Shown here: one piece after another, positions 2,230-13,988 of the stretch
Position numbering within the stretch: the stretch's first letter is position 1
Layout: each line of letters starts with the position of its first letter
Source: a bacterium
GTDB taxonomy: Bacteria; Hinthialibacterota; Hinthialibacteria; OLB16
Reading direction: 5' to 3'
DNA: 64,000 nt
NCBI GenBank assembly: GCA_022072055.1
Contig: JAJVIK010000006.1
Coordinates: 186,001 to 250,000, forward strand
Made by a program: the position numbers and the translations under genes
Notes under the pieces: generated by a model
Seen by the model: the letters and a program-made list of their open reading frames with translations, nothing else
The model's database searches: none
Told to the model about the DNA's origin: nothing

Positions 2230-2940
2230 CTAGTCGGAGTCCCAGTAGACATACGACGAGCAACGGTCACACTGAATCAGATCCAGGCCGCGCTTGGCGA
2301 CCTGGATGGTCTGGGGGGACAGCTGGATGCCGCACCCCCCACAGCAGCCATCCACGACGGGCACCACAGCGTTCCCGGCGCGTAAGAGCACCAGCTTGTC
2401 CACTCGCTGGAGAATCTCGCCTGGCACCAGGACCCGCTTTTCCTGCTCTTCGCCCTCGATCTCCGCGAGCTCCGCCTCGAACAGTTCGGACTGCCCCTCC
2501 AGCGTTTCAATCTCCGGTCCGACCTTCGCTCGGACCGCCTCAAGACCCGCTTCCGCGGTTTTCACCGCCTCCTGCAAGAGTTCTGTCTTGCCCTCAGTCT
2601 CGGTTACATAGCGTTCGAGCTCGGCGATCCGCTCGCGCGACAGCTTGATTTCCTTCTGGCGGGTCTCGTACTCGCGAGTGGTCTTGACCTGATTGAGTTT
2701 AAGTTGGAGGGATTGGAGCTTTTCCTCAACCTGTTTGATCTCTTTTCGAGACCTGGCGAGGGCCTGTTCGTTTTCCTTGACCGCGCTCGCGGCGGTTTCA
2801 AGTTCGGTTTCCGCCTTGGCGAGCTGCCCTCGAAGCTGCTCTAGGCGTTCGGGTATGCTTTCGTGGGTCCGATAAAGGTTGTATTTTCGGGTAATGACAG
2901 ACTGTAGGTCGATCAGCGCTAGGAGTCGTTCGTCTTTCAT
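2230..2940 (-). CDS. Coiled-coil protein with C-terminal C4 zinc ribbon
   Basis: This 236-residue protein begins with about 170 residues of charged coiled coil rich in E, K, Q and R. It ends in a zinc ribbon with two Cys pairs (DGCCGGCGI and CDRCSSYVYW) near residues 197-230. This is the layout of the widespread DUF164/zf-RING_7 family, often annotated as a C4-type zinc-ribbon protein. Members are thought to bind nucleic acid or act as chaperone-like factors, but the molecular role is unsettled. The ATG has GGAAG upstream. It sits between the DnaE-like gene (69-base gap) and the TPR lipoprotein, all on the minus strand, so an operon is possible. Family assignment is secure; function is not. 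Confidence 0.85.
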   Translation of the reverse strand: MKDERLLALIDLQSVITRKYNLYRTHESIPERLEQLRGQLAKAETELETAASAVKENEQALARSRKEIKQVEEKLQSLQLKLNQVKTTREYETRQKEIKLSRERIAELERYVTETEGKTELLQEAVKTAEAGLEAVRAKVGPEIETLEGQSELFEAELAEIEGEEQEKRVLVPGEILQRVDKLVLLRAGNAVVPVVDGCCGGCGIQLSPQTIQVAKRGLDLIQCDRCSSYVYWDSD

Positions 2941-3009: not shown

Positions 3010-6000
3010 TCAACCCGCATGAAAGATCTCCGCTTGCCCCGGCCCGACTTGGACCGTTCGGACGCCGGGGAGCTCGCCCAGGAAGGCGGTCAGAAGCCGG
3101 GATGCCAGGACCCGAGGGGCCCCCATGCGCCGAATGAACCTTCTCACGGAGCCTCGCCGGAGCACACTCGCCTCATTCTCGAAATGGAGCGGCACGCTCC
3201 ATTCCCCCTCTCCAAACCAATCGATCATCTCGGACAGGGATGTCAGCAATTCTCCCGGGGCTTCCTGTAGACCGACCCGGACTCTGATCCAAGAGGGCGC
3301 CTGATCCCGGATCTCCTCCAGCCGTTCGACCTCCAAGAGCTCATAGACGGCAAGCTCGGGGGTTCCGGTTGTTGGCACGCGCGCCACGCGGCAGAGCAGC
3401 CGCGCGGGGTCCCTCAGGAACAAGCGGCGCCCCTCCGGACGCGGCGCCTCAAAAGGAACCCGAAGGCTTGGGGCCAGGAGCCCCCGTTTATCGGACACTC
3501 GATAGGCCCCGTTTTCCGAGACCAGAAGGAACTCGATTCGGACGCGGGTTTCCTCCACGGTGTTGTCCCGCTCAGGCGTTGGCCCAGCAACGGGAAAGAT
3601 GTCCGCCTCATGACACCACCCGAAAAGGAATGGGAGTCTTCCGGTCGGCGCCTGCTCTCCGGAAAACCATTTTGGAGGAAGCCCCGCCTGGTCCGAGCGC
3701 AGAGGTGTGCCGAGCGCCCCGATACGCTCCAAGTCTTTCAAGACGCTATGTCCTGAAAGCCCCATGCTTTCTCCATCTCCATCCGAGGCGGTCAACGCAA
3801 ACAGAGTGGCTTGATCCCTTCGAGAGAGTGGCTGCCCGCCACGCCAGTGCGCCCTAGCCTCGGCCTCCAGCCGGGTCGGACTTCGACCCCCTCCCGGGAA
3901 GTAGCCGACCCGGATCAACTGTTCCAGGAGTCGCCAGGGAATGCGGGCGGGTGAGCTGCGCTGAAGCCAGGTTCGCCAAGCCTTTCCGGGCGCGTTTGAG
4001 CTGGACGCGTAGAGGTCCCAGATCGTGGGAGCGGAGACGGAATCGGCGGGAGCGGCATCAAAGTCGGCTCCAATCTGGCGACCCACGCCATCCAGGTTGA
4101 GTGTCCCAACCACCAGATGGTCGGGGCTTGAGGATCGATCATGGAGGGATCCAACCCCCAAACGTGGAGGGAGGAGCGTGACCCCCTTGAATTGCAGGAG
4201 GGCATAGACCTCTCGACGCTCATCCACCTCCTCGGGGAACAGGAAGGAAAGGGCCGAAGCGACTGCGGCCGGGTCGGCGGCGAAGCTGTCCGCCGCGCCC
4301 AAGAGCCCCTCCGCCAAGCGGAGGAATTCCAGCCGCCGGGGCAGCGGAAATGGGTTTCCCAGGAAGCGGAGGAAGGCCGCGCGAACCCTCCGATCCTGAA
4401 TGCCCGCGAGGTCTTTATCGAAGAGGCTTGGCTCACACTCCGCCTCCAACCACCGCTGAACCTCCTCCGGCGTGAACTCCAAAGCCTCCTGCAGCGCCCC
4501 TTCGAGCTGCTCCCGGTATAGCAACCATCCTCCCGTCGCCGCGCTCCACTTCTCCAGGTTGGAACTCAGGTCGCCGCCGGTCTTGGAATCGATCCGACTT
4601 TCCGCGAGGAAACACTTCCAGTCCTCCCACCAGGGGGGAGATCCTCCTGGGCTACGGAGCGGGTGTTCCCGTGTGATTGCTGCAAGCCGTCGTTCCACGC
4701 GTGGGGCCCAATAGGACACATGCCACTGAAGCGCCAGAAGGTCGGCGAGCTCTCCGAGCCGTGTCGGTCGGGTCTCCTCGATCCAGTGGCGCAACAGTGG
4801 GCGATATCCGCCGGAACCGGGCAGGGTCAGGAGGCGCAACAAACAGGAAGACCACCCGAGGATGTCGATGCGCCCGGAATCGTCCGAATAGCCGCGGCCC
4901 GTGAAGGCCGCTCCACGTCGGGCTTCAATCCAGTGGGTCAGTGTCTCCCGCGTGGGGGGGGTGTGGGGCTTTTGTTCGGGCACGCCCCGATAGGCCGGCG
5001 CGGCGGCGAGGGTCTGGGGGACAGGCGAGGAGATTCGCAGCACCAGCCCGCCCAGATTGAGCGCCTCCCCTGGGTCCAGGTCCAACCGGCAAGAGTCCTC
5101 GCCGACTCCGGCGAGGAGGTGCGCGAGATTCCCCCCAGTGAGAAGCAGGCTCTCCTCCGAATCGGTGGAGTTGCTTTCCTCCGCGCGCCCAAGCAGGCGC
5201 AGGGGGAGGGGGGGAAACTCCTTGGGACGGTCCCCCGAAAAACCCAGGTCCTCCCATTTCGTCAGGACCTTTCGCCCGGCAAGGAGGAACGCCTCGCGGT
5301 CGGGAAGCGGTTTCTCCGGAACGCGCCCGCCATGGTGTTCGCCCAAGAGTTTCACCAACGCGCCCTGGATTCGCTCCTCCCAGCCGAGAGGGCCTTCCAG
5401 TCCTACCAGGAGTCCGCCTCCGCTTGTCGGTTGAGGAGCCTCCGAACGGAACGGAATTCGCTCCCGCAACGGATCGATTCGAGTCATCCCCAAAAGGTGC
5501 GCGAGGAGCGAAGTCCCGATCCATTCCGCCGTGGGACGGAGGACTCCCGGCGAAAGGCCGAGCTGCCGTCGAGCATCCCAAAGAATCGCCCACACCAGCG
5601 GCCAAGCGGTTTGTTTGAGGAATTGGAATTCCTCCATCATTCGCTCCTTGCCTCCGGGCGCGCGAATGTGTCCCGTGGAGATGGCGGCTTCTTGCGCCAA
5701 GGTCCACACGAAGGAGGCCACATCGGTGCCGCGCGGCGTGGGATAAGCGGGCAGCGAGAGGGGGAGCTTTGGGAAGGGATCCTCGGATCTCGCAACGACC
5801 CTTTCCACAAGCCGTATTGAGGCGGAAAGCCCCTCAAGCGCGCGCTCGATTTCAGCCCTCGGGGGGATTCCCACACCCGGCCCGAGCCATGGGCCGCTTT
5901 CGCCGCCTTCCTCCCAGCCCTTGGCCAGCCCCCAGAAACGTTCGTGGCTCCACCGATAGGCTCCCCAGGTTACGGCCATCGGTGGTGGACAGCCGGGGAG

Positions 6001-6666
6001 CTTGGAGATCTGAGCCAGCTGCCGGTTCAGGCTCGCCCCTCCCTCCTGAAGATCCAGCCCGCCATAGCCGATCCGATCTCTCGGCCACCCTTCGATCCAT
6101 TCAACGACTCCCTCGGGGAGCCGGATCGGATCACGGGCCTCGATCCGGCGCCTAAGGCTCGAAAAGCTCGACCCTAAAAGCAGGAACAGCCCCTCTTGAT
6201 GCCTGGTCACTTCCCCGGTGGGGAGGATCTGGTCGTTGTACGCGACCCTCCGCTCAACCAGACGAAGGAGGTTCTGATATCCCTTGCGGTTCAGAGCGAT
6301 GAAGGCGAAGCGCTCGAAACGAGGCCCGGGGTCGGGAAAAGCGAGGTGTTCACCCAGATCAAACACATCCCCCAGCCTCGCCAAGCGCGAAGAGGGGGGG
6401 GCGCCCACACGCAGGATGGTCCCGACCAGGGGGTGGACCGCCCTTTCCCGGCAGGCCCGCGCGAACTGTGTGGCACCCCGCAGCGTCCCCTCATCCGCGA
6501 GGAGCAAGGCGCGGTACCCGGCGTCCACGGCTGCCTGCACGAGGAGCTCAACCGGGACCACGCCCAGAATGGGATCATGGGCGGTGTGAAGGGCGATCAG
6601 GGGACCCACTGGCGGCATATCGGGCTGATTGTGCCGAAGGAACCGGGGCTGGCAAGGTGAAAGCAT
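3010..6666 (-). CDS. DNA polymerase III alpha (DnaE)-like protein with lost catalytic residues
   Basis: This 1218-residue protein follows the DnaE layout from end to end. It has a PHP domain (about 20-290), a palm region with SLLAHLLGMTRIDPL (387-400) matching the DnaE GSLVAY...DPL block, and a D-I-L-G element at 601-604 matching the third catalytic Asp. A YREQ segment (717-720) matches the DnaE YQEQ motif, LLPP is at 831-834, and an OB/C-terminal-like end follows. The canonical P-D-x-D-x-D-F loop should follow DPL400 by about 25 residues. Instead residues 407-425 are Gly/Ser/Pro-rich with no acidic pair. The PHP metal motifs HxHS and DHG read HTAH (27-30) and DEG (58-60). The frame is intact over 3.6 kb, so it is not an obvious decaying pseudogene. 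A structural or regulatory role is inferred. M17 is an alternative start. Confidence 0.75.
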   Translation of the reverse strand: MLSPCQPRFLRHNQPDMPPVGPLIALHTAHDPILGVVPVELLVQAAVDAGYRALLLADEGTLRGATQFARACRERAVHPLVGTILRVGAPPSSRLARLGDVFDLGEHLAFPDPGPRFERFAFIALNRKGYQNLLRLVERRVAYNDQILPTGEVTRHQEGLFLLLGSSFSSLRRRIEARDPIRLPEGVVEWIEGWPRDRIGYGGLDLQEGGASLNRQLAQISKLPGCPPPMAVTWGAYRWSHERFWGLAKGWEEGGESGPWLGPGVGIPPRAEIERALEGLSASIRLVERVVARSEDPFPKLPLSLPAYPTPRGTDVASFVWTLAQEAAISTGHIRAPGGKERMMEEFQFLKQTAWPLVWAILWDARRQLGLSPGVLRPTAEWIGTSLLAHLLGMTRIDPLRERIPFRSEAPQPTSGGGLLVGLEGPLGWEERIQGALVKLLGEHHGGRVPEKPLPDREAFLLAGRKVLTKWEDLGFSGDRPKEFPPLPLRLLGRAEESNSTDSEESLLLTGGNLAHLLAGVGEDSCRLDLDPGEALNLGGLVLRISSPVPQTLAAAPAYRGVPEQKPHTPPTRETLTHWIEARRGAAFTGRGYSDDSGRIDILGWSSCLLRLLTLPGSGGYRPLLRHWIEETRPTRLGELADLLALQWHVSYWAPRVERRLAAITREHPLRSPGGSPPWWEDWKCFLAESRIDSKTGGDLSSNLEKWSAATGGWLLYREQLEGALQEALEFTPEEVQRWLEAECEPSLFDKDLAGIQDRRVRAAFLRFLGNPFPLPRRLEFLRLAEGLLGAADSFAADPAAVASALSFLFPEEVDERREVYALLQFKGVTLLPPRLGVGSLHDRSSSPDHLVVGTLNLDGVGRQIGADFDAAPADSVSAPTIWDLYASSSNAPGKAWRTWLQRSSPARIPWRLLEQLIRVGYFPGGGRSPTRLEAEARAHWRGGQPLSRRDQATLFALTASDGDGESMGLSGHSVLKDLERIGALGTPLRSDQAGLPPKWFSGEQAPTGRLPFLFGWCHEADIFPVAGPTPERDNTVEETRVRIEFLLVSENGAYRVSDKRGLLAPSLRVPFEAPRPEGRRLFLRDPARLLCRVARVPTTGTPELAVYELLEVERLEEIRDQAPSWIRVRVGLQEAPGELLTSLSEMIDWFGEGEWSVPLHFENEASVLRRGSVRRFIRRMGAPRVLASRLLTAFLGELPGVRTVQVGPGQAEIFHAG

Positions 6667-8920: not shown

Positions 8921-11163
8921 GAAGGTGTCTCCAAGTTCCGCTAGCCCTGGCGATCCTCCTTGGGGTTGGATGGACGGTCTACACCTTGGCCACTCGGGTT
9001 CCGGTCCGAATTCCTCCCCGCAAGGTGGTGGTGCTGGGCTTTGATGGCGCCGACCCTCGTCTGTGCCGGGAGTACCTGGAGAAAGGGTTGCTTCCAAACC
9101 TCGCGGCGCTCATGAAGGAGGGGACCTTCATGGACCTGGAAACGGTCAACCCTTCCCAATCGCCGGTTTCGTGGAGCTCCTTCGCGGTTGGGGCGGACCC
9201 GGGGGCGCATGGAATCTTCGATTTCCTCACGCGCAACCCGATCGCCCCGACCTATGCCCCCAGCCCAGAGTCTTTCGTCGGCCAGGTCGAGGCGAGGTTC
9301 TTCGCGGGGATTCCGATCCGCCGACCCAAGGTTATCAACAAGCGCGGGGGACGGGCTTTTTGGGAATATGCCGCCGAGGATGGGATCAAAACCGCCTTGT
9401 TCCTGGTTCCGGTGACCTTCGCTCCCCCTTGTCTGCCAAATGGGCTTGCGTTCTCCGGCCTGGGAGTTCCCGATCTCTGCGGAACTCAGGCCAAGTATTT
9501 CTTTCTGACCTCCAGCCCCTCGCGTTCGAAACGGACCGTGGACACCGAATTCGGCGGCTTGCTCGGCGCGCTTGCCCGGGTGGGGAGCCTTTACCGAGGT
9601 CAACTCATCGGGCCTCCCTCTCCGCTTTGGAAACAGGAAAAGTCGGCTCGGGCCTCGAAGCTTGAGACTCTCAGGCGGAAGATTGAGCGGGCAGGAGCCG
9701 CTTCCGAGAGCAAGCGCAAGCTGGAGGACGAGTTCCAGGCGCTCCAGACGGAGTACGATGCGTTTCGGAAGACCCCCGAGCGGCTCACCATGCCGATTGA
9801 GATTGAACCGAACCCGGACGGTCGAGGGGCCAAGGTTCGAGTGGACAACGAGCTTCAGGAGGTCCGGGTCGGCAAATGGAGCGACTGGTTTCGTGTTCGC
9901 TTCAAAGTGACTCGATTCATCTCCGCGCATGGCATCTGCAAGGTCCTGCTCCAATCGGCGAGTCCAATCGTGGACATCTATGTTTCCCCCATTGAAATCA
10001 GCCCGGAAAAGCCGGTGATTCCGATCTGTTGCCCTTCCCACTTCAGCGCGCGGCTCGCCAAGAAGGTGGGTCTGTTCAAGACGCGGGGTTGGGAGTCGGA
10101 CACCGCGGGCCTCAAGGAAGGGGCCATCGACGAAAAGGCCTTTGTCGAGGACACCTTGGCCACGATGGACCAGCAGTGCGAGATGCTCCTCGAGACCTTG
10201 GCCCATGACGATTGGGGCCTCTTTGTGGCGGTGCTGTCTGAGACCGACCGGATGAGCCACGCCATGTGGCGCCTCATCGATCCCCAGCACCCGCTTTACG
10301 ACCCCGTGCTGGCGGCTGAGTATGGGGACTCGATTCAGAAGTCCTATCAGAAAATGGACGAAATTGTCGGCAAAGTCCGCGGACGGATCGACCCGGACAA
10401 GTCCGATCTCTATGTGATCTCGGACCATGGCTTCCGCTCCTTCCGGAAGGGGGTGAACCTGAACACCTGGCTTTCGCGGAACGGGCCGGGGGGGGATTCC
10501 ACCAGACCGTTCATGCAGCTGCGCGTCCCGACCGACCGGAAGTACAATCTCGAGGACTTGTTTGGAGGGAAAACAGACTACTTCATGACTGAGGTGTTTG
10601 ATCCGGTCAGCGGCGCGACTCGTTCCGAGTGGTATGTAAACTGGAAAGAGACCGAGGCATTCTCGCTCGGACTCGGGTCGATCTTCATCAATCTGAAGGG
10701 ACGTGAGACTCACGGTTCGGTCCAACGGTCGGACTATGACGCGGTCTGCGAGGAGATTGTGCGCGGGCTGGAAGCGCTGGTCGATCCGGATACGGGGGAA
10801 AAGGTGATCCACAAGGTCTATCGCGGGACCGAAATCTTTCACGGCCCTTACGCCCGTGTGGAGAGCACCGCCTTCCCCGACCTGATGGTCGGTTTCGCGG
10901 AAGGGTACCGGGTCGGCTGGCAATCCACTCTGGGGGGCATCGAGGATCAAGTGATCAGCCTGAACCGCGAAAAATGGAGCGGCGATCATTGCGGGATTGA
11001 CCCTAGCTTAACCGGCGGGATCTTCTTCTCCAATCGCAAGGTGTCTTCGGACAGCGCGGGGGTGATCGACCTGGCCCCCACAATCCTCTCCGCCCTGGGA
11101 GTCAAGTATCCGACGATGCAAGGGCAAGCGCTTTCCTTGGACAGTCCGGGAGGAGGCCTATGA
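8917..11163 (+). CDS. Membrane-anchored alkaline-phosphatase-superfamily protein (type I phosphodiesterase-like)
   Basis: The ATG at 8917 overlaps the esterase stop and starts with a hydrophobic anchor (about residues 6-24). VVLGFDGADP provides the first metal Asp of the type I phosphodiesterase/nucleotide pyrophosphatase fold. S-P-V-S-W-S-S-F holds the likely nucleophile. SETDRMSH and SDHGFRSF provide further metal ligands, and GDHCGIDP occurs near the end. A coiled region (about 250-300) is inserted between core blocks. At 748 residues it is longer than a minimal enzyme of this superfamily. Likely a periplasm-facing hydrolase of phosphodiesters or a phospholipid/phosphoglycan; the substrate cannot be read. 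Its TGA overlaps the glnD ATG. Confidence 0.8.
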   Translation: MRRCLQVPLALAILLGVGWTVYTLATRVPVRIPPRKVVVLGFDGADPRLCREYLEKGLLPNLAALMKEGTFMDLETVNPSQSPVSWSSFAVGADPGAHGIFDFLTRNPIAPTYAPSPESFVGQVEARFFAGIPIRRPKVINKRGGRAFWEYAAEDGIKTALFLVPVTFAPPCLPNGLAFSGLGVPDLCGTQAKYFFLTSSPSRSKRTVDTEFGGLLGALARVGSLYRGQLIGPPSPLWKQEKSARASKLETLRRKIERAGAASESKRKLEDEFQALQTEYDAFRKTPERLTMPIEIEPNPDGRGAKVRVDNELQEVRVGKWSDWFRVRFKVTRFISAHGICKVLLQSASPIVDIYVSPIEISPEKPVIPICCPSHFSARLAKKVGLFKTRGWESDTAGLKEGAIDEKAFVEDTLATMDQQCEMLLETLAHDDWGLFVAVLSETDRMSHAMWRLIDPQHPLYDPVLAAEYGDSIQKSYQKMDEIVGKVRGRIDPDKSDLYVISDHGFRSFRKGVNLNTWLSRNGPGGDSTRPFMQLRVPTDRKYNLEDLFGGKTDYFMTEVFDPVSGATRSEWYVNWKETEAFSLGLGSIFINLKGRETHGSVQRSDYDAVCEEIVRGLEALVDPDTGEKVIHKVYRGTEIFHGPYARVESTAFPDLMVGFAEGYRVGWQSTLGGIEDQVISLNREKWSGDHCGIDPSLTGGIFFSNRKVSSDSAGVIDLAPTILSALGVKYPTMQGQALSLDSPGGGL

Positions 11164-13988
11164 GCGAGGCGCTCGCGGCTCCCAAGGCGCCCGGACTCGA
11201 TCCGGTGGTGTACGAGCTCCGCAAGTTCCGTCAGGAGGGGCTTGAGAAGATCGCGGAGCGCCACAACTCCCAGATCGGCGGCATGCAGATCGTGGATGAA
11301 ACCACCGGGCTGATGGATCAGGTGGTGGTCAAGATCTGGCAGCACGCTCTCCGCGAGGGGACTCAGACCGCCGGGGTGGATTTTTCGGTCACTCCCCCGC
11401 GCGTGGCGCTGGTGGCCATCGGCGGATACGGGCGCGCGCAGCTCCATCCCCGCTCGGATGTGGACATCCTCTTTCTCCACCGCAAAGCCCTCCGCCCCTT
11501 TGAGGAGACCCTGGTCAAGACCACCCTCCGAATCCTCTGGGACCTCGGCCTGGACATCGGCCATTCGGTTCGCACGATCCCAGACTGCATCCGCATGGCG
11601 GGAACCGATCTCGACACGCAGACCGCGCTCTTGGAGAATCGCTTTCTCGCCGGCAACCGCCCGTTGTACGAGGAGTTTCACCGACGTTACCGTGATTTCA
11701 TCGCGGGCAGGGGCATTCGCAAGTTTGTTTCGCAAAAGGAGTGGGAGCGTCAAGAGCGCTACCGTCGTCATGGCGATGTGGTCGCGGTCCAGGAGCCCAA
11801 CATCAAGGAGGGCGCCGGAGGCTTGCGGGACTTGCACCATGCGATCTGGCTGGCGCTTGCGGTGTTCGATATTTCCAATCTCGCCGGGATGCGCCGCAGC
11901 GGACTGATCCGGGAGCCGTTTTATGGTCAGCTTTGCCAAGCGGTGGACTTCCTGCTCAGGGTTCGCAACGAGCTCCACCTGAATTTCAAAACCAGTTCCA
12001 ACCGGCTCTCCTTCGAGGTCCAGGAGGCGGTGGCGAAATCCTTCCGCTATCGGGACGAGGGGGTCAATCTCGCCGAGGAAAGCCTGATGCGGGATTATTA
12101 CAAGGCCGCCTCGACCGTTCAACAATTCGCCGACCGGATGACCAACCAGTGCCTCAAGCCCCCGCGCTGGAAACTGCTCCGTTACCTGTTTCAGCGCCGC
12201 GATTATGAGGATGGGTTTGTGCTGCGGTCGGGAATCCTCTCGGTCAAAACCCCTGAGACTTTCTTCCTCAACCGCCCCGACCGTGTGATCCGCCTGTTTG
12301 AGATTTTCCAGGAAACCGCCTGCGCCTTTGATGGGGAGATGCTCACCGAGCTGCCCCGCATCCTCTCCTCGATGACCGTGGAGGACTTCACCGAGCCCAA
12401 GGAGATCGGATCGAGGATCATCTCCATGCTCTCCAAGAAGGGACGAGTGGGACCGGTTTTCCGCGCGCTGTATGAGCTTGAGGTTTTGGACCTGATCATG
12501 CCCGAATTCACCGTGATCCGCTGTCTGCCCCGACGCGACCTGTACCATCGGTACACGGTCGATGAGCACTCGGTGATCACCCTCGATATCCTGGATGGCC
12601 TGGCGGAGGAGCAAGCCCCCGCGTCCCCCTGTCTCCCACTCAAGGAGCTCGCGGATCGCTTCCCCGGAGTCCGCCGCAAGTGGCGTTGGTGGGGCGGAAA
12701 GGCGCGCGACAACGACCAAGCCGAAATCGAGCCCGCCCCGGCGCTCGACACCATGACCCTCCCGATATACAGCCAGGGGGGGGAAAGCATCCTCAAGGAG
12801 ATCCGCCAGCTCTACGCGGCGGTCGCCAAGCCGCATCTTCTCTACCTTGCCACGTTCCTCCATGATATCGGGAAAGGTCGGGGCGGGGACCATCACATCA
12901 AGGGAGCGATGATCGCCCACGAGATCTGTCGCCGGCTCGGCCTCAACGCTCCGGAGACCGACTTGGTGATCTTCCTGGTGGAAAAGCACCTCGAATTCGC
13001 CAAGATCGCCTTTCGGTTCGACACGCAGGACTTCGCCACGGTGGAGGAGTTTGGCTCCTTGTGCGACACGCGCGAGAAGCTGGACTATCTTTACATTCTG
13101 ACCCTGGCGGATATATGGGCGGTGAACACCGAGCTTCTCACCGAATGGAAGCTCGCCATGCTGCATCAATTCTACAGGGAGGTGCGGGCGTTCTTGGACG
13201 ATCGGGCGGCGGTGGAGGCAAAACGCGCCGAGGAGCGGCGGCAGGCTTACGCCAAGTTCCTGGATGAGCTGCCGCGCGACCTCTCGCAGTCGGAGGCCGA
13301 GAAGCATCTCAGCCGAATGCCCTCCGAGTATCTTTTCAAGCAGAACGCCGACACGCTCCACCAACATCTGCGCCTGCTTCGCAAATACACCGGCGAGGCT
13401 CCGGTGGTCGGCTGCCGCGAAACCCTCTCCAATATCCTCGAAGTCACCACGATCCAGCCCTCCCGCATCGGCAATTTCATGCGCACCGCAAGAGCCATGT
13501 CCAGCCTGGGGCTCAGCATCTCCGAGGCGCGCATGTTTGTCCGCGATGATGGAGTCGCGTTCAACACCCTCCTCACCGAACACCAGGAGCGGATCGGCTT
13601 CGGGGAGGACATGGCGCGGCGAGTGATCGAGAGAACCATTGAGTCCATCCAGGATCGCTGGGATCCCAAGTGGGACCCCAAGCCGACCAAGACCGGCGAG
13701 TTCGGGCGCTCCCGCTACACCCCCACGGTGGAGGTGCTCAATCAAGTCTCCCCCCGTTACACGGTGATCGAGGTGCGTTGCGCGGACGCCATCGGCGTTC
13801 TGGTACGGATCACCTCGGTGCTTGCCAAGTACGGCCTGAACATCGATTTCGCGCGGATCCACACCGAGGGCCAGCGCGTGATCGACACCTTCTTTGTCCT
13901 GGACAGTGACCGGAGGAAATTCGAGGAGCCGCAGAAGATCAACTGGCTCAAGAACTCGCTGGTAAAGGCGCTCAACGAAATTGTCTAG
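11160..13988 (+). CDS. glnD: Bifunctional PII uridylyltransferase/uridylyl-removing enzyme
   Basis: This 942-residue protein has the GlnD order. A nucleotidyltransferase domain carries GGYGRAQLHPRSDVD (88-102, both catalytic Asp present). GAGGLRDLHH is the conserved linker motif. An HD domain carries HDIGKGRGGDHH (about 568-579), and two ACT domains follow, the last ending the protein. GlnD uridylylates and deuridylylates PII according to glutamine level, so this is the nitrogen sensor. GGAGGAGG precedes the ATG, which overlaps the upstream stop by four bases. Compared with the enterobacterial enzyme there are roughly 60 extra residues between HRYTVDEHS and HDIGKG. No glnB or amtB gene is in the window. 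Coupling to a phosphodiesterase gene is unusual. Confidence 0.92.
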   Translation: MSEALAAPKAPGLDPVVYELRKFRQEGLEKIAERHNSQIGGMQIVDETTGLMDQVVVKIWQHALREGTQTAGVDFSVTPPRVALVAIGGYGRAQLHPRSDVDILFLHRKALRPFEETLVKTTLRILWDLGLDIGHSVRTIPDCIRMAGTDLDTQTALLENRFLAGNRPLYEEFHRRYRDFIAGRGIRKFVSQKEWERQERYRRHGDVVAVQEPNIKEGAGGLRDLHHAIWLALAVFDISNLAGMRRSGLIREPFYGQLCQAVDFLLRVRNELHLNFKTSSNRLSFEVQEAVAKSFRYRDEGVNLAEESLMRDYYKAASTVQQFADRMTNQCLKPPRWKLLRYLFQRRDYEDGFVLRSGILSVKTPETFFLNRPDRVIRLFEIFQETACAFDGEMLTELPRILSSMTVEDFTEPKEIGSRIISMLSKKGRVGPVFRALYELEVLDLIMPEFTVIRCLPRRDLYHRYTVDEHSVITLDILDGLAEEQAPASPCLPLKELADRFPGVRRKWRWWGGKARDNDQAEIEPAPALDTMTLPIYSQGGESILKEIRQLYAAVAKPHLLYLATFLHDIGKGRGGDHHIKGAMIAHEICRRLGLNAPETDLVIFLVEKHLEFAKIAFRFDTQDFATVEEFGSLCDTREKLDYLYILTLADIWAVNTELLTEWKLAMLHQFYREVRAFLDDRAAVEAKRAEERRQAYAKFLDELPRDLSQSEAEKHLSRMPSEYLFKQNADTLHQHLRLLRKYTGEAPVVGCRETLSNILEVTTIQPSRIGNFMRTARAMSSLGLSISEARMFVRDDGVAFNTLLTEHQERIGFGEDMARRVIERTIESIQDRWDPKWDPKPTKTGEFGRSRYTPTVEVLNQVSPRYTVIEVRCADAIGVLVRITSVLAKYGLNIDFARIHTEGQRVIDTFFVLDSDRRKFEEPQKINWLKNSLVKALNEIV

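Follow-up and report, generated by a model that had tools for sequence, protein, structure and literature searches.

A putative polymerase-dead DnaE paralogue in Candidatus Hinthialibacterota and its likely relatives in other bacterial phyla

Introduction

Why would a bacterium keep a full-length relative of the DNA polymerase III alpha subunit that has lost its polymerase active site? This question is raised by a long open reading frame in the genome of a member of Candidatus Hinthialibacterota, located within the 64,000-nucleotide stretch of DNA analyzed here (hereafter, the window). A first-pass annotation of the window had described the frame as an intact but apparently catalytically dead DnaE paralogue, presumably retained by selection for a non-polymerase role such as a clamp-binding scaffold, a repair mutasome factor or a regulator of the true DnaE.

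Surveys of C-family polymerases published in 2013 (PMC3919608) and, as far as its main text goes, in 2026 (PMC12926913) recognize the groups DnaE1, DnaE2, DnaE3 and PolC only. In the earlier survey, leftover sequence fragments that lacked an intact site were discarded (PMC3919608), while the main text of the later one covers inactive Y- and X-family polymerases as well as inactive PHP or DnaQ domains, and a polymerase-dead C-family group is absent from that text (PMC12926913). Literature searches likewise returned no description of a polymerase-dead DnaE group.

Homology to DnaE and Loss of the Catalytic Site

The frame contains no internal stop codons, and its GC contents of 0.71, 0.52 and 0.72 at the three codon positions are compatible with a coding gene. 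Because the alignment with orthologues starts there, Met17 (nt 6618) is the likely start of the protein. Among Pfam domains, only PHP is recognized; TIGR00594 matches at 3e-9, the NCBIfam DnaE models match residues 26-176 well under their cut-offs, and a phmmer search of the PDB retrieves the mycobacterial DnaE1 5lew over residues 27-407 (3e-6). At the profile level, the window family aligns over its full length with DnaE1 (E 2e-42, 1075 columns), and judged from these comparisons the homology to DnaE lies beyond chance. In an alignment of 28 sequences, comprising the window protein and DnaE1 and DnaE2 proteins of the same class and of other phyla, the window protein follows DnaE from the PHP domain through to the C-terminal tail, with the order of the HhH and OB regions preserved.

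In Escherichia coli alpha, the essential Asp triad consists of D401, D403 and D555. All three positions are replaced in the window protein, no alternative set of catalytic Asp residues appears elsewhere in the chain in the alignment, and the RPGP, GKK and NKSH motifs have been lost as well (Table 1). The view of the protein as an intact DnaE paralogue with a replaced catalytic loop is borne out. The sequence strings on which that view was built all occur where they had been placed (HTAH at 27-30, DEG at 58-60, SLLAHLLGMTRIDPL at 386-400, YREQ at 717-720 and LLPP at 831-834). DILG is present too; however, it had been taken for a DnaE landmark, and it corresponds neither to DFLGL nor to the third Asp, lying approximately 57 residues beyond the real third-Asp site and carrying Glu in place of Asp in the orthologue of genome G002. 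The PHP metal motifs had been read as HTAH and DEG, and degradation goes further than this, with one of nine metal ligands left in the window family.

The position of the DnaE clamp-binding motif is occupied by QATLF, compared with QVSLF in the DnaE1 of the same genome and QQTLF in the G002 orthologue; the motif is weaker in the two other orthologues (QESFL in G001, QLLLA in G005). The C-terminal domain matches that of DnaE1 (E 4e-4) and that of a second dead family described below (E 3.5e-5), the match being modest (hhalign probability 34%), and profile comparison with DnaE2 gave no match for this domain. An AlphaFold 2 model built from a six-row alignment reached a pLDDT of 46 because the alignment was too shallow, and Foldseek still placed DnaE first with it, which counts as weak evidence.

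Table 1. Features of the candidate dead dnaE gene and its downstream neighbor (window coordinates).
Feature	Coordinates	Strand	Residues	Remarks
Polymerase-dead DnaE paralogue	3010..6666	(-)		1218 aa as called; homology and orthologues L003, L004, L005
PHP-like domain	5977..6603	(-)	~22-230	Pfam PHP 7e-10; metal ligands 1/9
GPGRGSAAGS loop site	5509..5538	(-)	377-386	RPTAEWIGTS; from alignment
Catalytic PDxDxDF loop site	5392..5412	(-)	419-425	LLVGLEG; host DnaE1 has PDIDTDF
Third catalytic Asp site (KMDFLGL)	5011..5043	(-)	542-548	VLRISSP; Asp replaced by Arg544
DILG	4855..4866	(-)	601-604	Out of register with DFLGL
LLYREQL	4504..4524	(-)	715-721	Aligns with DnaE LYQEQV
QATLF, clamp-binding-type motif	3799..3813	(-)	952-956	At aligned DnaE clamp-motif position
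DnaE1-type C-terminal domain	3034..3330	(-)	~1113-1211	From profile comparison
Downstream gene, coiled-coil and C4 zinc-ribbon (CT398-like)	2230..2940	(-)		~70 nt from the dead dnaE gene, same strand

Orthologues and Genomic Context

Homologues exist in related genomes, where the annotation had suggested looking for them. The gene is carried by four of the 14 genomes of the class, namely the window genome (G000), G001, G002 and G005, with protein identities to the window protein of 42% (G001), 36% (G002) and 26-29% (G005). A scan of genome contigs with the single window protein gave no match, and a scan with the alignment recovered the three further Hinthialibacterota genomes together with an ordinary active DnaE-type polymerase on an acidimicrobial contig. 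No conserved operon surrounds the gene across the four Hinthialibacterota genomes compared. Elsewhere in the window, a 958-aa open frame (10986-13862, minus strand) runs antisense to a GlnD-like gene (11160-13988, plus strand) and probably arises merely from the high GC content.

A single regular DnaE1 is present in each genome of the class; in the window genome it is the only regular DnaE (C3:111107, E 1e-97) and is the second, intact dnaE for which the annotation had suggested a check. Regular DnaE2 is found solely in G004, G008, G012 and G013, all four of which lack the dead gene, and six genomes of the class possess neither. Most genomes of the class contain a Y-family polymerase (PF00817), but none was detected in G000 and G001, two of the three genomes of the window's family.

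The orthologue of G002 is intact (1258 aa), and those of G001 and G005 are frameshifted; where a gene was broken, its two frames were read as one for alignment purposes alone. Frameshifts in relatives had been named as a possible sign of plain decay, and they do occur, but the break in G001 is probably a sequence error since in this OLB16 assembly the sole regular and essential dnaE1 (L062, about 1890-1901) and lexA (L303) are frameshifted too, and the broken frames of this assembly are not evidence of decay. G005 additionally contains a lone 89-aa frame matching the DnaE polymerase domain (G005:C34:153836-154006, E 3e-8), possibly a remnant of another dnaE.

A Second Dead Family and Its Kinship with the Window Protein

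A match in G025, a genome of another phylum, also proved to lack the catalytic site. The family to which it belongs is present in 35 of 40 genomes of that phylum, alongside regular DnaE1, and the genomes examined for it also have regular DnaE2. In a motif table of 30 of its sequences, at most one of the three catalytic Asp residues is retained in every case. A clamp-type motif with an [LF][FL] core, often LFD or QATLFD, occurs in 27 of the 30, and a C-terminal domain of 75-127 aa is kept in all of them; regular DnaE2 proteins stop short of this domain. Of the nine PHP ligands, no sequence has all and the counts run from 0 to 8, with many sequences at 0-2 and G025, G053 and G056 at 7-8. The AlphaFold 2 model of the G025 protein (18 rows) attained a pLDDT of 86.9, with a Pol III alpha-tau-DNA structure as the best PDB match (E 2e-60), so the predicted structure indicates that the alpha-subunit fold is retained in this family. 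Local synteny with a cyclophilin-like gene, and nothing wider, is seen in part of the phylum. In G073 (L142, 4536-11459), a regular dnaE2 neighbors the dead dnaE in convergent orientation, about 30 nt away.

With hhalign, the window family scores higher against this second dead family (540, E 3e-62) than against DnaE1 (367) or DnaE2 (253). Across 386 diverse genomes, the window-family profile retrieved, at E<=1e-45, its own class and one dead DnaE of G071 alone, and in the same sample a profile of the dead region of the second family scored its own members at 293-338 bits and anything else at no more than 164 bits. In phylogenetic analysis, DnaE1 and DnaE2 are separated from both dead families by a branch with 100/100 support, all DnaE1 falling on one side and the window protein on the other, and DnaE2 forms a separate supported group. 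A single origin of the two dead families appears likely, though not proven; long-branch attraction could have contributed to their joining in the tree, although the profile comparisons point the same way. By these comparisons the window protein is related to the second family yet forms a distinct subgroup: its fingers region spans 139 aa, and this region is deleted in the second family alone, where 8-29 aa remain compared with 121.

Two other origins were considered and rejected. A recent duplication of the host DnaE1 would place the window protein in a clade with the DnaE1 of the host's own family, an arrangement rejected by the AU test (p = 1e-4). An inactivated DnaE2 is disfavored by the window protein's C-terminal domain, which DnaE2 proteins lack, and by the trees, which separate the two.

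Selection on the Dead Genes

Estimates of dN/dS were obtained with the Nei-Gojobori method for the dead gene in species pairs of the second family. In G044/G045 the dead gene gave 0.101 and DnaE1 gave 0.098. The dead gene gave 0.093 in G060/G061 and 0.108 in G066/G067; in G057/G058 the values were 0.42 for the dead gene and 0.28 for DnaE1. A ratio of about 0.10, equal to that of DnaE1 in the same pair, excludes decay, and the second-family gene is under strong purifying selection though its product is apparently unable to act as a polymerase. For the window gene, the evidence of retention is indirect: the 1218-codon frame of G000 and the 1258-codon frame of G002 have both stayed open at a mere 36% protein identity. 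The earlier proposal that selection retains the gene is supported by both observations.

On this evidence, the notion of a decaying pseudogene that has yet to break, favored by frameshifts in two of the four window-family genes, is hardly credible and is already contradicted by the open frames of G000 and G002, by the damage to essential dnaE1 and lexA in G001 and by the dN/dS of about 0.1 in the second family.

Dead DnaEs in a Third Phylum, Two of Them beside lexA

An odd match in G223 led to more dead DnaEs in a third phylum. Those of G223 and G454 are about 1008 aa long, with PEFELEV and PELDLDV, and G447 has another. A further class of 908-933 aa (G425, G427, G436, G441 and G463; L274, L275, L277, L279 and L281) lacks the OB and C-terminal domains and has clean clamp motifs such as QFSLFD, QISLFD and QLSLFD; frames of 908-933 aa in several additional genomes of the phylum are candidate members of the same class. 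In the tree, the third-phylum proteins lie apart from both of the dead families described above, and they may represent independent inactivations.

In both G223 and G436, the dead dnaE lies directly upstream of lexA on the same strand, at distances of approximately 40 and 64 nt. The two lexA-adjoining loci (L273, 7732-11307, plus strand; L283, 7642-11142, minus strand) come from two families of the phylum and represent two different dead-DnaE classes, and the pairing suggests a damage response in this phylum. A perfect palindrome, CTATACAttTGTATAG, is present upstream of the pair in G436. No LexA-box-like palindrome shared with lexA was found upstream of the gene in G000, G001, G002 or G005.

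Proposed Role and Alternatives

Taken together, the sequence comparisons indicate that the window protein is one of a larger number of dead DnaEs distributed across several phyla. With confidence a little better than even, it is read here as an ancient dead DnaE, a 'pseudo-alpha', rather than a decaying copy of DnaE1, which would serve as a non-catalytic Pol III subunit docking on the clamp and on tau. QATLF would dock the protein on the beta clamp, and the C-terminal domain would dock it on the tau subunit of the clamp loader; both contacts are predicted from motifs, and DnaE1 is known to bind tau through its C-terminal domain, which all DnaE2 proteins lack (PMC3919608). Once docked, the dead DnaE might provide a scaffold within the Pol III holoenzyme or serve there as a placeholder. 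Alternatively, it might steer polymerase access to the clamp, in the way that dead ImuB, a member of another polymerase family, does for DnaE2. The clamp-binding scaffold envisaged in the annotation gains from the position of QATLF and from the second-family dN/dS of 0.10, with binding itself a prediction. Counted against this reading are the small number of carrier genomes (four), the frameshifts in two of them, the modest match of the C-terminal domain, the weaker clamp motif of G001 and G005 and the poor model of the window protein. The third-phylum lexA pairing makes it lean towards a damage response rather than normal replication. More tentatively, and short of an even chance, the dead DnaEs as a whole may form an ancient C-family lineage beside DnaE1-3 and PolC, acting as non-catalytic holoenzyme subunits on the clamp and the tau arm.

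Among the competing explanations, an SOS factor for the recruitment or regulation of an error-prone polymerase, as a C-family counterpart of ImuB, survives best and is nonetheless doubtful. It would account for the two dead-DnaE classes directly upstream of lexA and for the convergent dead dnaE and dnaE2 of G073, but the third-phylum proteins may have been inactivated independently, and the mutasome role that the annotation had suggested is, for a mutasome of the ImuB type, unsupported in the window genome because no Y-family polymerase, DnaE2, conserved repair neighbor or recognizable LexA box upstream of the gene was found there. An improbable alternative is that the protein is a structural relic whose OB and HhH regions contact primer-template or single-stranded DNA, independently of clamp and tau; the preserved order of these regions is compatible with it, but the conserved short clamp-type motif and the C-terminal domain would be left unexplained. 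It is very improbable that the proteins are separate proofreading or processing nucleases that dropped the polymerase and kept PHP: the PolX-like proteins described in the main text of the 2026 survey offer a precedent (PMC12926913) and G025, G053 and G056 come close to a full PHP site, yet no member has nine of nine ligands, many have 0-2 and the window family has one.

The presence of a dead DnaE in nearly an entire phylum, under constraint like that of a replicative polymerase, implies that the alpha-subunit fold has a job besides synthesis, and the maintenance of such proteins in distant bacteria points to an unrecognized component of replication or repair whose contribution is non-enzymatic. 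Such proteins might also serve as natural tools to probe the purpose of holoenzyme contacts. In practice, the automatic label 'DNA polymerase III alpha' can mislead.

Comparison with Known Systems

The window protein shares with DnaE1 the order of PHP, polymerase core, HhH, clamp motif, OB and C-terminal domain, whereas DnaE1 possesses the three catalytic Asp residues, GRGSAAG, RPGP, KK, NKSH and the PHP ligands, and the two would be separated as deep lineages. DnaE2 is likewise a C-family accessory paralogue with a degraded PHP domain; however, the DnaE2 proteins seen here keep a catalytic PDIDxDF-type loop and lack the C-terminal domain, the reverse of the window protein. ImuB resembles it as a non-catalytic polymerase fold with a clamp motif, but belongs to the Y family with an unrelated fold, and the window genome has no ImuA or ImuB partner. 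The PolX-like proteins of Actinobacteria are also polymerase paralogues that have lost polymerase function, although they belong to the X family and keep the PHP site that is degraded in the window protein. The closest parallel is the dead family of the G025 phylum, in which, as in the window protein, the catalytic Asp residues are lost while the clamp motif and the C-terminal domain are kept.
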